Shown here one piece after another: positions 1,038 through 7,267 of a stretch of DNA of 55,111 nt. Within the stretch, counting starts at the first letter, position 1; each line of letters opens with the position of its first letter. The notes below the pieces were generated by a model. That model had not been told where the DNA came from. It ran no database searches and worked only from the letters and a program-made list of their open reading frames with translations. The DNA comes from Bacteroidales bacterium (GTDB taxonomy: Bacteria > Bacteroidota > Bacteroidia > Bacteroidales > UBA10428): assembly GCA_016926375.1 (NCBI GenBank), contig JAFGOR010000150.1, forward strand, positions 1 to 55,111. Reading direction: 5' to 3'. The translations under genes and the position numbers were made by a program.

Positions 1038-1254
1038 CAGTTATAAAAGTATGGGATTCAAAGATATTAAATCCTGGAGTAATATAAAGTATTCATAACC
1101 TTAGTAGAATAATACTGCTGTGAATTAGATTGCGATGAATCATTTAAAAAATCTCACACTTCACAAATTTTTTAAAACATAAGATGAAATAAGGTAAAAG
1201 ATTTTGTAATCAGCAGAAAAACTGATGACTATATTTAGAATTAATATAAATTAC

Positions 1255-1265
1255 GGGGGGGGGGG
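1255..1265. repeat. G11 homopolymer tract
   Basis: Direct reading: ttac-ggggggggggg-taaat in an otherwise very AT-rich intergenic region. Confidence 0.9.
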
Positions 1266-1286
1266 TAAATATTTGCTTAAATATAT

Positions 1287-1294
1287 TATATTTG
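1287..1294 (+). promoter_or_regulatory. Bacteroidota -7 promoter element match (TATATTTG, consensus TAnnTTTG)
   Basis: Exact TAnnTTTG match 21 bp downstream of the G11 tract; no clear -33 element. Confidence 0.4.
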
Positions 1295-1295
1295 A

Positions 1296-1362
1296 ACATG
1301 ATCCGATAAAAGAAAATGGGTTTAGGGAAATATTGGAATAGGATCATGTAATAAGCTTTTTT
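1296..1362 (+). ncRNA. Putative short hairpin transcript or leader element
   Basis: Perfect 9-bp inverted repeat acatgatcc (1296-1304) / ggatcatgt (1341-1349) followed by a T6 run (1357-1362), just downstream of a TATATTTG box. Confidence 0.25.
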
Positions 1363-1567
1363 GAATACAAGATTGTGGGTAATCAGAGATAGATAGACCT
1401 ATTATTTGAGGGTATGTTAGTGTACAGGTTTGTATATTAATACGTAAGCATCACTATCTTTAAATGATATGGTGGCAATATTGAATACAACCCAAAATGC
1501 TGCAAGTGGAGTTTCGAAACCATAAATATTTGATATCAAATTAATTGTTTAATTTAATCTGAAAAAA

Positions 1568-1819
1568 ATGAAACGAAAAACAGTTTTTTTTGGTTTAGCT
1601 GTGTTCATCATCAGCTTGACTATTACAATTAATGCAGGATTTCAAAAAGGTAGTGATACGTTATTTGAAATTGGGGCTATAGTGGAAGCGGACGCCACTG
1701 CTCCGGAATATGAAAATGGTAGACCCATGTGTACTTATCAGCAAGGTGGCCAAACTAAATTTTGCTGTTATGATCCTGATGGAACAGATTGCGGAGCTGC
1801 TCCGTGTCCCGGAAGTTGA
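1568..1819 (+). CDS. Small secreted Cys-rich peptide, NVEALA-family-like
   Basis: 83 aa; N-terminal signal-like hydrophobic segment, GAIVEADATAPE segment resembling the NVEALA motif, then a short tail with 5 Cys (MCTYQQGGQTKFCCYDPDGTDCGAAPCPGS). Confidence 0.6.
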   Translation: MKRKTVFFGLAVFIISLTITINAGFQKGSDTLFEIGAIVEADATAPEYENGRPMCTYQQGGQTKFCCYDPDGTDCGAAPCPGS

Positions 1820-1846
1820 TATGAGTATTTAATTTATGGCTTTTAT

Positions 1847-1886
1847 GCAAGAGCTTTTAATAATATTTTAATTTAAAAGCTCTTGC
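1847..1886 (+). terminator. Stem-loop between the peptide ORF and the downstream operon (terminator/attenuator candidate)
   Basis: Perfect 14-bp inverted repeat gcaagagcttttaa (1847-1860) / ttaaaagctcttgc (1873-1886), 12-nt loop, followed by tttaatttat. Confidence 0.55.
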
Positions 1887-1913
1887 TTTAATTTATATTT
1901 ATACTTACTACGA

Positions 1914-3110
1914 ATGAAATTTACACCTTACATTTCAATTATTGTTCTATTGTTTTGCTCCTGCAGAAATAAAGAACAAGATTTTCAAAACTCAAACAGA
2001 CCGGAAATAATCAATGTAAGTATTCCTGATCATGGTATATTAACTTTATCAGAATTATACCAAAACTTCAACTTGATAAAACTTCAATCAAGAGATAAAA
2101 CAGGACTAATTAACTATATTTCAAAGATGCAGGTCGTGAAAGATCGCATCTTTATTCTGTCAAATAATACCATTTTATGTTTTAAACTTGATGGTTCTTA
2201 TTTGAGTTCACTTGATAAAAAAGGTAAAGGTCCGGGTGAGTATTCCAGAATCAGTGATTTCTTTATTGACACATTGGTTAATTGTATTGAAATTAACGAT
2301 GATTTAACCAAGAAGATTATAAGGTATTCTTATGATGGTAATTTCCTTGATGAATGGAAACACAATTTCTTTGTAAACCGATTCATAAAAATCAACAATT
2401 ATACATATGTATTCTATTGTTCGTCATTTATTAATAGTAATATTAAGAAGAGAATCATATTTGTAAATAGGGAAAAGGGCGAAGTTCAAGAAAGTCATAT
2501 AGACATAACTGATGAAGAAGCATGGTATTTGTACATTATGGACAATACTAATTTTATAACTTCTTACAATGGTACCAATCAGTTTTTATATTCACAATGC
2601 GATACAATTTATTCAATAACTTCGAAAGGAATAATCCCCAATAAAGTAATTCATTATGCAGGACAAGGAATACCACAACAATTATTTAAAGAAAGGCACG
2701 AAGACATTTTTCAATTTATGCAAGCTTTAAATAAAACCAACTATACCGGATTAATAGATAATTATTATGATACAGATTCCTGGATCTATTTTACTGTTAA
2801 GCAAAAGGGTAACTTGTATCATGTAATTTTTAATAAGGATGAAAGGAATTCAAAAGTGGCAGATAAGATAATGGACGATATGATGTTTAGAGAGCATAAT
2901 TATTCCTCCAATTCCAGTTTTTGGCCTAAGTATAGTAGTAAGAACATGATTTATTATTCTCTTGACCCAGGTGAGTATAAAGCGATATTGGACTCTCTTC
3001 AGCATCAGGGTAAGGCTTTAGATAAAAAGCTTGTTGCATTTGGAGACAGTTTATCATTCCTGGATAATCCGGTTCTGATCAGATTTGAAATAAAAGCTAA
3101 CCACAAATAA
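1914..3110 (+). CDS. 6-bladed beta-propeller lipoprotein (DUF5128/BF3164-like)
   Basis: 398 aa; lipobox-like LLFCSC near the N-terminus; typical pattern DRIFILSNNTILCFKLDGSYLSSLDKKGKGPGEYSRISDFFIDTL. Confidence 0.7.
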   Translation: MKFTPYISIIVLLFCSCRNKEQDFQNSNRPEIINVSIPDHGILTLSELYQNFNLIKLQSRDKTGLINYISKMQVVKDRIFILSNNTILCFKLDGSYLSSLDKKGKGPGEYSRISDFFIDTLVNCIEINDDLTKKIIRYSYDGNFLDEWKHNFFVNRFIKINNYTYVFYCSSFINSNIKKRIIFVNREKGEVQESHIDITDEEAWYLYIMDNTNFITSYNGTNQFLYSQCDTIYSITSKGIIPNKVIHYAGQGIPQQLFKERHEDIFQFMQALNKTNYTGLIDNYYDTDSWIYFTVKQKGNLYHVIFNKDERNSKVADKIMDDMMFREHNYSSNSSFWPKYSSKNMIYYSLDPGEYKAILDSLQHQGKALDKKLVAFGDSLSFLDNPVLIRFEIKANHK

Positions 3111-3117
3111 TTGTAAC

Positions 3118-3741
3118 GTGAAAAGCTGTAATTGTTTTTTAGCGTTAGGGGCTTTTTCAGTTCTGCTCATAGGTTCTTTAATATTTTATAATGTTTTGAA
3201 TGAAAAGACCAAAAACAATTACCAGGCATTTGAGATGCTTCTAAATGGTTCAAGATTAAAATATAACATTTTAGAAAAGCAGTTTTATTTTTTCATGAAA
3301 TACAATGACTTCTATTTAAACAACAGTATATGCTTAACTGATTCGATAAGAAATAAATACAAGATTAAAGAGATCATTAAAAATAAAAGTTTTGTAATGG
3401 TAATTCCTGAAAACACATGTAATCTTTGTAATGATACTCTTTTATACAAAGTTGTGGAAAATGCATACAAATTTGAGAAGAACCAATTTTTTATTATTGT
3501 TCCATCAAGTCGTTTAAGAGAGTATTACTACTTTTTTAATCAAAGGAATATACCTAATATTTATGGTATAGATTCCGGATTATTTCTAATTAATGAACTT
3601 GATAACAGTTTAATTCCTTACTGTTTTCTTATAGATGAAAAGTTGAAGCTTACAAATCTTTTCTTGGCTGATGCAAGAAACCAGGAAATATTCATCCAAT
3701 ACTTCAAATCAATCTCATATGCTCTAAATGTAGGAATTTGA
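3118..3741 (+). CDS. Membrane-anchored thioredoxin-like protein with CxxC motif
   Basis: 207 aa; start is GTG; N-terminal TM segment; KSFVMVIPENTCNLCNDTLLYKVVENA resembles beta-strand followed by CxxC. Confidence 0.5.
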   Translation: MKSCNCFLALGAFSVLLIGSLIFYNVLNEKTKNNYQAFEMLLNGSRLKYNILEKQFYFFMKYNDFYLNNSICLTDSIRNKYKIKEIIKNKSFVMVIPENTCNLCNDTLLYKVVENAYKFEKNQFFIIVPSSRLREYYYFFNQRNIPNIYGIDSGLFLINELDNSLIPYCFLIDEKLKLTNLFLADARNQEIFIQYFKSISYALNVGI

Positions 3742-4604
3742 AAGGTTTAAAAGGTCATATAAGTTGGTCTCAAACAATTATAATTTTATTATGCATTATC
3801 CTGATCACATTTTTACTTCGGATTTTTGTTTTCGATCTATACAGAATCCCTTCTTCTTCTATGTCGCCGTCACTTTATCCAGGTGATTTTATCATTGTTG
3901 ATAAAATAAGCTATGGACCAAGGACTATTGACTTTCAAAAGCTAATAAAAGAGAAGATCTTAGATTACCGCTTATGCAAAGGAATTGATAATCCCCAAAA
4001 AGGTGATGTAGTAGTGTTTAATTACCCGGATTACTCAAATTTTAAACATTTAAACAATGTGAGTTTTTATGGAACCATCATGATTAAAAGATGTTTTGGA
4101 GAACCCGGGGACACTGTATTGATTAAAGTTGATTGTAATATATCTGACACAAACGGATTTGATGCCTATAATAAATACACTTCAGGTGAAATTGTTTTTG
4201 ATGAATTAAAAAGAACAAGACTTTTCCCATATGACAGTGCATTAAATTGGACAGTTTCCTGTTATGGCCCGTTATGGGTACCATGCAAATTTGCAATAAT
4301 TAATACTACATTAAGTTTTATGGAATACTATAGGGATCAGATAATTTATGAAGGTTTCAAAATGGAGGTTAAAAATGATTCTGTCATTCTGAATAATATT
4401 TACCACTTATCCCTAACATTCAATAATGACTATTACTTCATGGTTGGTGACAATTGGTATAATTCATATGACTCACGATACTGGGGTTTTGTACCGGAGA
4501 AAAATATCATTGGGAAAGCTGTGCTGGTTTTGTTTGCTTTAGATCCATTTAAACCATGGTATAAGAAATTCAAATGGAATAGATTTATGAGAAGGATAAT
4601 GTAA
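3738..4604 (+). CDS. lepB: Signal peptidase I (S26 family)
   Basis: TM segment then YRIPSSSMSPSLYPGDFIIVDKISYG (Ser box), MIKRCFGEPGDTVLIK (Lys box), MVGDNWYNSYDSRYWGFVPEKNIIGKA (GDN...S.DSR..G.V box); overlaps the upstream ORF by 4 bp. Start is TTG. Confidence 0.88.
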   Translation: MKGLKGHISWSQTIIILLCIILITFLLRIFVFDLYRIPSSSMSPSLYPGDFIIVDKISYGPRTIDFQKLIKEKILDYRLCKGIDNPQKGDVVVFNYPDYSNFKHLNNVSFYGTIMIKRCFGEPGDTVLIKVDCNISDTNGFDAYNKYTSGEIVFDELKRTRLFPYDSALNWTVSCYGPLWVPCKFAIINTTLSFMEYYRDQIIYEGFKMEVKNDSVILNNIYHLSLTFNNDYYFMVGDNWYNSYDSRYWGFVPEKNIIGKAVLVLFALDPFKPWYKKFKWNRFMRRIM

Positions 4605-4738
4605 AATGAATAAAAATGTAGAAATAAAAGAATTGCTTTTTAGTTAAGAAAAATTCATTTTTATATCCTTGACTAATTTAAACATATACTATTATTACAA
4701 TAATTATAGAAGTCATCTGGTCCTGCAAATTTTTACTC

Positions 4739-5938
4739 ATGAATTGGTATACAACAGTTTCATGCATTGCCGTATTTCTTGGGCTTCAACTTTTTCAAGC
4801 CTGTGTGGCAAAATCCGATCCACCCGGGCAGTCCGTCCATGCCGGCGCGGACCAGACTTCCCTGTACTTCCCCCTTTTGGAAGGGAAATCTGTGGGACTT
4901 GTGGCCAACCATACTTCGGTCACCGGACAGGTTCACCTTGCAGATACTTTGATTCGTTCGGGAATTAACCTGGTGAAAATATTCGCGCCCGAACATGGTT
5001 TCAGAGGCACTGCGGATGCCGGGGAGAATATCACCAACGGTTTGGACAGCCAGACCGGCGTTCCCATCATCAGCCTGTACGGTTCAAAATCGAAACCTTC
5101 CGCCCATGATCTGAAAGGCATTGATGTGATGGTATATGACATCCAGGATGTCGGGGTAAGATTCTATACCTACATTTCAACGCTTCATTATGTGATGGAA
5201 GCCTGCGCGGAAAATGATGTGCCCCTGGTGATACTGGACAGGCCCGATCCGCTTGGACATTACGTAGATGGTCCGGTGCTTGACAAGGCCTTCAGATCCT
5301 TTGTGGGCATGCATCCCATTCCGGTTGTTTATGGAATGACGGCCGGAGAACTGGCCCGGATGATCAACGGGGAAGGCTGGCTGGCCGGTGGTCTTGCATG
5401 TGATTTGAAGGTTATTCCGTGCGATAGTTATGATCACAATACTTTTTACAGTTTACCAGTTGATCCTTCTCCCAACCTGAATTCCATGGAAGCCGTCTAT
5501 TTATACCCATCGCTGTGTATTTTCGAGGGCACCATCATGAGCCTGGGCAGGGGAACTCCAACACCGTTCAGGGTGGTGGGGCACCCTGAATACCCGGACA
5601 AAACCTTTTCGTTCACTCCGAAAGCGACAGCGGCCAATAAAAATCCGGTTCACAGGGATAAGATCTGCTATGGCACCGATTTCCGGTCAATGCCTGTCGC
5701 TGATTTGCAGCAAATGCGGGGATTGAATCTCCAATGGCTCCTCGACGCCTACACGACGATGGGGAAAAAGGAGAGCTTTTTCACCGATTATATCGATAAA
5801 CTGGCGGGAACAGGCAGTCTGAGGAAACAGATCATGGATGGAATGACCGAGGAGCAGATCAGACAGACTTGGCAGGAGGAATTGGTGAAATTCAAAGTTT
5901 TAAGAAAGAAATATATTTTATACAAAGATTTTGAATGA
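4739..5938 (+). CDS. namZ: DUF1343 family protein, exo-beta-N-acetylmuramidase NamZ-like
   Basis: GKSVGLVANHTSVTGQVHLADTLIRSGINLVKIFAPEHGFRGTADAGE...GIDVMVYDIQDVGVRFYTYISTLHYVMEAC...LDRPDPLG, characteristic of DUF1343. Confidence 0.85.
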   Translation: MNWYTTVSCIAVFLGLQLFQACVAKSDPPGQSVHAGADQTSLYFPLLEGKSVGLVANHTSVTGQVHLADTLIRSGINLVKIFAPEHGFRGTADAGENITNGLDSQTGVPIISLYGSKSKPSAHDLKGIDVMVYDIQDVGVRFYTYISTLHYVMEACAENDVPLVILDRPDPLGHYVDGPVLDKAFRSFVGMHPIPVVYGMTAGELARMINGEGWLAGGLACDLKVIPCDSYDHNTFYSLPVDPSPNLNSMEAVYLYPSLCIFEGTIMSLGRGTPTPFRVVGHPEYPDKTFSFTPKATAANKNPVHRDKICYGTDFRSMPVADLQQMRGLNLQWLLDAYTTMGKKESFFTDYIDKLAGTGSLRKQIMDGMTEEQIRQTWQEELVKFKVLRKKYILYKDFE

Positions 5939-5950
5939 AATCCAATATTT

Positions 5951-6290
5951 CAACCTACAAGGTTGAAGGATTTCATTTTATATATTTCCACTACAATAAT
6001 TCATCCTCTACGAGGATGTTACGGAGATGTCGTTAATGCTTATTGAAGGATTGATCCCCGAACCTTGTAGGTTCAATTATTGTAGAAATCGGGATGGCTC
6101 GCATTATTCCACATCCCTGTAGGGGATGAATAATTCGAATAATATAATCAACAACCGTTATTAGAAATTTTCATCTAAAAGAGGATATTATGGTGTTTGA
6201 TGATCATGATCTACAATAATTCATCCCCTACAGGGATGATGTATGTCGCAATAGTGATGTTTCTACAACAATTCATCCTCTACGAGGATG
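5951..6290. repeat. Cluster of short palindromic repeats (REP-like), consensus CTACAATAATTCATCCYCTACRRGGATG
   Basis: Palindromes at 5951-5965 (caacctacaaggttg), 6002-6018 (catcctctacgaggatg), 6060-6074 (gaaccttgtaggttc), 6112-6128 (catccctgtaggggatg), 6222-6238 (catcccctacagggatg), 6274-6290 (catcctctacgaggatg); several preceded by ctacaa[t/c]aattcat or its reverse complement. Confidence 0.8.
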
Positions 6291-6412
6291 TGTTCATGCT
6301 GGTTTTAGCAATTTCACAGAAGTTGAATTATATCAGGAAAAGTAGTTATTTTAACATCACATTAATATCTGACTACTAATGTATCATTTCATCTCAGGAC
6401 AAAATTAATAAG

Positions 6413-7267
6413 ATGAATTTTGTTGCAGAAAATCACCTCATCACCAACGGAAATACGAAGCTTGCGGTGAAAATTTATCCCTGCGCTGCATCGGAAACCA
6501 TTATTCTCCTTCACGGAGGTCCCGGTGTGCCGGACGAAATGACGGAAGTCCGGGAATTCCTGTCCGGGCATCTTCAGGTGATCACCTTTGACCAGCGCGG
6601 AATTGGAATGACGGACCCTCAAAACTGCAGCTTTACCATGGCTGATTACATCAGTGATGTAAACCATATCGCAGCTTATTTCGCCCTGGATGGATTTCAC
6701 CTCTTCGGGCATTCCTGGGGAGGTTTGTACGCGCAGCTATATGCCCGTGAGTTTCCGGAACGGGTGCTTAGTCTTTTCTTATGCAGTCCTGCATCGGGGA
6801 CAGGCAGGCAGTGGTCGCTGACCGAAAGAGAAGTGTTCCGGTACAACCGCGAACGCTCAACCCTTGGTGAATGGATCTGGATGGGCGTTAATACAGCATT
6901 GGGATTATTTGGAAGCAGCAGCGCATACCGCCGTTTATTCAGACAAATCATCATCAACTACCATAAAGGGTATAACGTGGAACCTCCCGATCCTGAAAAG
7001 CTTGCCCGCATAAATGCCAAAGCAGGCACCAGAACGCGTAATGCGATTAAGAAACATCCACCACTCGGGGTATTCGGAAAAACACCTTACCCGGTGATGA
7101 TTACATACGGTGAATTTGATGCCTATGGCAAAAGCAGGGAATTTGTACTGGAGCGGTTCCCTTTTGCCAGAACCGCAATAATACCGGGTTCCGGCCATAC
7201 TCCCTGGAAGCATAACCTGAAGGAGTTCGGGAAGATCCTGAATGATTTTTATGTACAGGGTCACTGA
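6413..7267 (+). CDS. Alpha/beta fold hydrolase (proline iminopeptidase-like)
   Basis: LLHGGPGVPDEM, ITFDQRGIGMTDP, LFGHSWGGLYAQLYAREFPERV, GSGHTPW. Confidence 0.85.
   Translation: MNFVAENHLITNGNTKLAVKIYPCAASETIILLHGGPGVPDEMTEVREFLSGHLQVITFDQRGIGMTDPQNCSFTMADYISDVNHIAAYFALDGFHLFGHSWGGLYAQLYAREFPERVLSLFLCSPASGTGRQWSLTEREVFRYNRERSTLGEWIWMGVNTALGLFGSSSAYRRLFRQIIINYHKGYNVEPPDPEKLARINAKAGTRTRNAIKKHPPLGVFGKTPYPVMITYGEFDAYGKSREFVLERFPFARTAIIPGSGHTPWKHNLKEFGKILNDFYVQGH

Follow-up and report, generated by a model that had tools for sequence, protein, structure and literature searches.

Contig JAFGOR010000150.1 of the Bacteroidales assembly GCA_016926375.1, a metagenome-assembled genome (MAG), was analysed over its full 55,111 nucleotides, which we term the window. 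Our subject is an AT-rich island at positions 1038-4738, placed between a lolC-like gene, whose 5′ side ends at 1037, and the divergent namZ, which starts at 4739. The island carries a cassette of four open reading frames (ORFs) on the forward strand, at 1568-4604, encoding a propeptide, a propeller lipoprotein, a CxxC protein and a signal peptidase. The last two genes (3118-3741 and 3738-4604) share 4 bp. The GC content of the block is approximately 0.29-0.31, compared to 0.45 in the surroundings, and GC at third codon positions (GC3) is 0.26-0.30 in the cassette genes, whereas 30 further genes from the window have 0.51 ± 0.045. The ORF calls and the GC and GC3 values thus confirm the initial annotation, which had described four co-directional ORFs in an AT-rich block and the 4 bp overlap.

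Does the block belong to this site? The lolC-like gene and namZ are divergent neighbours, separated by approximately 65 bp, in a genome of the same genus (G247, L176) and one of the same family (G042, L177), and contig C53 of the source genome (L179) holds a second copy in which they also adjoin. In the window they are 3.7 kb apart. Because the flanking genes are neighbours in relatives, and given the GC3 contrast, the four-gene block is an insertion between lolC-like and namZ. No target-site duplication or flanking repeat was found at the island edges, nor any tRNA or Rfam feature marking an insertion. We note that the lolC-like ORF of the window apparently starts a few codons late. The MAG contains two lolC-namZ-hydrolase blocks, one at 1-1037 and 4739-7267 of the window and the other on C53, with namZ 65% identical between them, indicative of either an old duplication or a chimeric bin.

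The first gene (1568-1819) encodes a signal-bearing propeptide of 83 residues with five cysteines. A basic start is followed by a hydrophobic segment to about residue 21, a linker and the sequence IVEADA at residues 38-43. The predicted cut, after Ala43 (base 1696), would leave a mature part of 40 residues with Cys55, Cys66, Cys67, Cys75 and Cys80. The propeptide has no match in Pfam or NCBIfam, and a search of the source genome with the Pfam NVEALA model (PF14055, 27-bit cut-off) gave none either. However, with a profile constructed from 21 NVEALA peptides that pass the Pfam model, it is the top match of the whole window (E 6e-4) and, when the 9631 ORFs from all loci are searched, scores E 0.023. 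The score of 14.0 bits was reached by one of 3000 shuffles that keep the signal segment, and profile-profile alignment (hhalign), with the window peptide grouped with three variant relatives, gives a probability of 95%. EADA follows the hydrophobic segment at a distance of 22 residues (median 23 among 46 peptides), the cysteines come after the motif, and the EAxA position is nearly constant across peptides of the family. On the basis of the profile, shuffle and profile-profile tests and of this spacing, the window peptide is probably a divergent relative of NVEALA. The NVEALA likeness proposed initially is therefore upheld by profile alignment with a shuffle control, and not by the Pfam family model.

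EAxA is an A-x-A site of the signal peptidase I type, but one unusually far from the hydrophobic segment. Gln occupies the P1′ position after EAxA in 10 of the 46 peptides, whereas substrates of Bacteroidetes signal peptidase I have Gln at P1′ in 71% on average (PMC5837995). A direct search for the peptide in 295 genomes of the order returned only marginal, scattered matches, since the peptide is too short and diverged, and neighbourhoods anchored on the peptidase were used instead.

That enzyme, a signal peptidase I of family S26 with 288 residues (3738-4604), matches Peptidase_S26 with E 1.8e-35 and TIGR02227 with 116 bits against a cut-off of 47. The catalytic Ser41 (bases 3858-3860) and Lys117 (4086-4088) are intact and occupy columns invariant in 11 and 17 aligned relatives. 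The closest peptidase is that of locus L063 in genome G167 (49% over 223 columns). In an unrooted tree with long branches the window enzyme groups with L063 and L046 (support 100/99), the three being placed next to a dedicated clade from gut species and, together with it, split from the housekeeping LepB enzymes and from L124 (100/94). Size alone was considered as a mark of a dedicated peptidase and rejected, as the L124 enzyme (393 residues) and those of G074 (407-454 residues) also lie beside peptide clusters.

The association of the cassette gene families is beyond chance. The 295 genomes were surveyed with a small-signal-peptidase profile (E ≤ 1e-65) and counted as plain genomes, ignoring kinship; the small peptidase occurs in 12, of which 8 carry a Pfam NVEALA peptide over cut-off, compared to 5 of the 283 others. 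A separate run of alignment A3 against 85,462 species provided 80 loci, not matched by species, from which 16 small Bacteroidota peptidases (≤ 340 residues) were compared with 59 longer, mostly housekeeping ones for genes within 10 kb. A propeller is present in 11/16 small against 2/59 longer cases, an NVEALA-type peptide in 8/16 against 1/59 and a CxxC or DUF1573 protein in 9/16 against 1/59. An O-antigen ligase (13/16 against 0/59), a transglutaminase-like gene (8/16 against 0/59) and a resistance-nodulation-division (RND) pump (6/16 against 1/59) are likewise enriched. The single peptide-positive longer case, L124 from Prolixibacteraceae, has four peptide-propeller-CxxC triplets; its 393-residue peptidase overlaps a DUF1573 gene and RND genes are also present. 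In G074, longer dedicated peptidases again adjoin NVEALA peptides, propellers and DUF1573 genes.

All four functions occur together in L063, L157, L172, L051 and L124. L063 encodes the peptidase, a peptide with NNVVSEALALP, a propeller and a CxxC protein with CNSC. In L157 (G055) the order is transglutaminase-like gene, O-antigen ligase, peptide, propeller, CxxC protein, peptidase and an RND trio, so that the core gene order matches the window cassette. Many further peptide-propeller-CxxC triplets came to light when the CxxC family alone served as the query. Co-occurrence of the four families in other genomes had been set beforehand as a test of the proposed system, and the neighbourhood comparisons found it. 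The small peptidases of Ignavibacteriota and Chlorobiota have no peptide partners, and L046 (the sister peptidase, in G064), L109 and L138 have no visible partners. Signal peptidases of 224 residues, found beside an RND trio in L197 (G060) and beside peptide-propeller-CxxC genes in L172 (G278), are a further small peptidase lineage.

The second gene (1914-3110) encodes a six-bladed propeller lipoprotein of 398 residues with a lipobox. It matches DUF5128 (PF17170) with E 2.3e-32 and 112.9 bits against a cut-off of 22.9, and DUF4934 with E 5.6e-7. Over all loci, a small Cys-rich secreted ORF lies directly upstream of 60/114 propellers, compared to 9/194 control genes. Propeller similarity between genomes correlates with that of the mature peptide (r 0.59, 0/5000 permutations; 0.13 for the leader), a relationship that rests on three peptide/propeller types with 13 units, beyond which no covariation was detectable. 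That the propeller tracks the mature peptide suggests cognate pairs, and hence a role as carrier, receptor or immunity partner.

The third gene (3118-3741) encodes a membrane-anchored protein of 207 residues with CNLC at residues 101-104 (bases 3418-3429). The match to Redoxin (E 5e-4, 20.3 bits) falls under the 26.6 cut-off. In an alignment of ten relatives the CxxC cysteines are, besides Met1, the only invariant columns. The AlphaFold2 model (predicted local distance difference test score 83.8) places one N-terminal helix before a predicted thioredoxin fold. Against the PDB it gives 497 matches at E ≤ 1e-3, with Redoxin folds and TlpA foremost and peroxiredoxins among them. The initial annotation had named a propeller lipoprotein, a CNLC thioredoxin-like protein and signal peptidase I; the family matches, lipobox, modelled fold and catalytic dyad described here agree with all three.

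An export component is lacking from the cassette. Contig C29 of the source genome (L193) encodes an RND adaptor and pump, a tandem pair of DUF5128 propellers and the product of another RND gene, and this is probably the missing export module. RND export is plausible in view of this combination of pump and propellers and of the RND trios beside many clusters.

How might the cassette work? A dedicated processing and display system is the best reading of it. We consider it probable, with some reservation, that the window holds the compact, horizontally acquired cassette form of a widespread Bacteroidota secreted-peptide system around NVEALA-type peptides. The precursor would begin with a membrane segment, followed by a spacer of approximately 20 residues, the EAxA site (EADA here) and a short Cys-rich mature part. 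We infer cleavage, a disulfide step, binding, export and a role in signalling or killing. Following export through Sec, the cassette signal peptidase would cut after EADA, a site that lies unusually far beyond the hydrophobic segment and departs from the Gln rule of the phylum. The membrane-anchored CxxC protein may form, reduce or isomerise the peptide disulfides, the propeller lipoprotein would bind the mature peptide as its cognate carrier, receptor or immunity partner, and export is probably by an RND tripartite pump whose genes lie elsewhere in the genome. A dedicated cutter fits the distant EAxA, the few Gln at P1′ and the ordinary signal peptides of G022 and G216, which have no such peptidase. 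The wider proposition, that this is a phylum-wide class of secreted peptides spread as cassettes by insertion, with its own maturation line (a peptidase for the distant EAxA, a CxxC oxidoreductase, a cognate propeller as receptor or immunity lipoprotein, and RND export) and the window as a minimal environmental form, we advance tentatively, as a possibility just short of being favoured.

Several observations weigh against this explanation. The cassette is seen in one MAG of 3.43 Mb, 86% complete, and the families outside the window rest on our own profiles and ORF picker. The propeptide fails to match PF14055 even at E 10; it also has a second site ending in Ala only two residues past the hydrophobic segment, and the cut at EADA is predicted from sequence. 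The peptide-propeller correlation is gone once its three types are removed, and the window cassette belongs to none of them. Three nearly complete genomes (G121, G280 and G290) encode NVEALA peptides with extended leaders and have LepB only, and the triplets of G022 and G216 combine ordinary signal peptides with no dedicated peptidase. Since some genomes with NVEALA peptides are without it, the dedicated peptidase is not obligatory where such peptides occur. The triplet peptides of G216 (L158, L170) and G022 (L160-L163, L174) have short signal peptides and many cysteines, and these triplets are a second form of the system. The dedicated secreted-peptide system suggested by the initial annotation is thus supported by gene co-occurrence and by the profile-level NVEALA kinship, and weakened by the absence of a dedicated peptidase from G121, G280 and G290. 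As a whole the earlier interpretation is supported in part, having overlooked the insertion and the RND, O-antigen ligase and transglutaminase-like partners seen in relatives.

What role would the mature peptide have? It could be a bacteriocin made to kill related bacteria: one shared leader would carry many different mature peptides, each with a propeller of its own as immunity or docking partner. The processing steps are those already set out, so that the difference concerns role alone. Small, Cys-rich and variable mature parts on conserved leaders, tandem peptide-propeller pairs and a propeller that follows the mature part in three types are all compatible with this, and secreted peptide toxins of Bacteroidales, the bacteroidetocins, exist (PMC6671954). 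Nevertheless no toxin or bacteriocin family was matched, NCBIfam giving only a sub-threshold lactococcin-972 for one relative, and we regard killing as unlikely, if the foremost of the alternatives. A signalling role, in which the peptide is a pheromone or envelope signal perceived via the propeller and a neighbouring histidine kinase and response regulator, is a little less likely again: such regulators adjoin NVEALA-propeller genes in L047, L060, L072, L073 and L074, but histidine kinases are not enriched near small peptidases (1/16 against 3/59) and the window cassette has none.

The peptide might instead stay in the membrane or form a structural part of the envelope, the peptidase serving other proteins within a co-regulated envelope island. 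This would account for a peptidase that is not obligatory and for the O-antigen ligase, transglutaminase-like and RND genes in the clusters. It sits poorly with a peptidase gene that overlaps the CxxC gene in a cassette with no other obvious substrate, and with an EAxA site of near-constant position, for which an uncut anchor has no need; we judge it improbable. That unrelated genes simply met in an AT-rich patch is very improbable indeed. Both families, propellers and S26 peptidases, are common, but the contrast in co-occurrence with LepB loci, the sister locus L063 with all four genes and the empty site in relatives oppose chance.

Upstream of the peptide gene, at 1234-1267 on the forward strand, is an element of the form TTTAGAAT-N5-TAAATT-(n)-G11-TA, its G tract at 1255-1265. 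The sequence G9TA occurs once in the 3.43 Mb source genome, within this element. Among the 295 genomes there are eight copies of TTTAGAAT-N5-TAAAT(T)-n-G7..11-TA with both half-sites: that of the window, one in L063 (3054-3083), the nearest sister locus, likewise upstream of its peptide, and those in L184, L187, L188, L190, L191 and L192. A specific link to peptide loci was rejected as other genes are preceded by copies too. The copies often lie just upstream of a promoter-like TAnnTTTG box and differ in G-tract length; the element is possibly promoter-associated, the tract perhaps variable in length and phase variation possible. Separately, two contig ends of the public genome G011 resemble sequencing-adapter remnants, the start of L052 translating to PCSTPGRTLFPYTTLFRS and that of L054 to YELLRSDWSSDVCSSDL.

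In Bacteroidales genomes, NVEALA peptides and DUF5128 propellers are met repeatedly, without an assigned function. No literature mention of NVEALA, DUF5128 or DUF4934 was found, with most subscription journals and preprints outside the coverage, and no description of such cassettes, though they recur across the phylum, laboratory species included. A survey of ribosomally synthesised and post-translationally modified peptides in Bacteroidales has no mention of propellers or signal peptidases (PMC10352776). For B. thetaiotaomicron, a transcriptome table shows an O-antigen ligase (BT0662), a propeller (BT0664), signal peptidase I (BT0667) and an RND adaptor (BT0669) close together by annotation, and their expression changes have listed p-values above 0.1 (PMC10434189).

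The window peptide shares with the NVEALA family (PF14055) its size, basic start, hydrophobic segment, spacer, EAxA at equal distance, short Cys-bearing mature part and a propeller gene just downstream, but has IVEADA in place of NVEALA and a similarity confined to the profile level. The peptidase has the S26 family, Ser/Lys dyad and conserved boxes in common with the housekeeping LepB (TIGR02227), from which it differs in length (approximately 290 residues against 350-530) and position in the tree. The CxxC protein resembles TlpA/ResA-type membrane thiol oxidoreductases in its single N-terminal membrane helix, thioredoxin fold and CxxC, yet is only about 10-16% identical to solved structures and belongs to its own CxxC family in peptide loci. 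Bacteroidetocins are likewise small secreted Bacteroidales peptides, but they are described as kin of the Gram-positive class IIa bacteriocins, and to our knowledge they lack an NVEALA motif, a propeller and a signal peptidase at the locus.

A further comparison is with the NVEALA-propeller-LepB clusters of gut Bacteroidales, as in Phocaeicola vulgatus ATCC 8482 (L147), Bacteroides timonensis (L106), B. rodentium (L133) and, by annotation, B. thetaiotaomicron BT0662-BT0669 (PMC10434189). As P. vulgatus ATCC 8482 and, by annotation, B. thetaiotaomicron are tractable and carry genes of these kinds, direct testing of peptide cleavage, disulfide state and propeller binding is feasible; if our explanation is correct, a dominant gut phylum would have an additional route of peptide secretion. 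Peptide, propeller, redox or DUF1573 protein and small signal peptidase are common to the gut clusters and the window. Beyond these, the gut clusters hold transglutaminase-like, O-antigen ligase and RND genes, and they have several pairs of peptide and propeller. The window cassette consists of the minimal four genes and an RND pump is encoded elsewhere in the genome, a form that hints at the core of the system.

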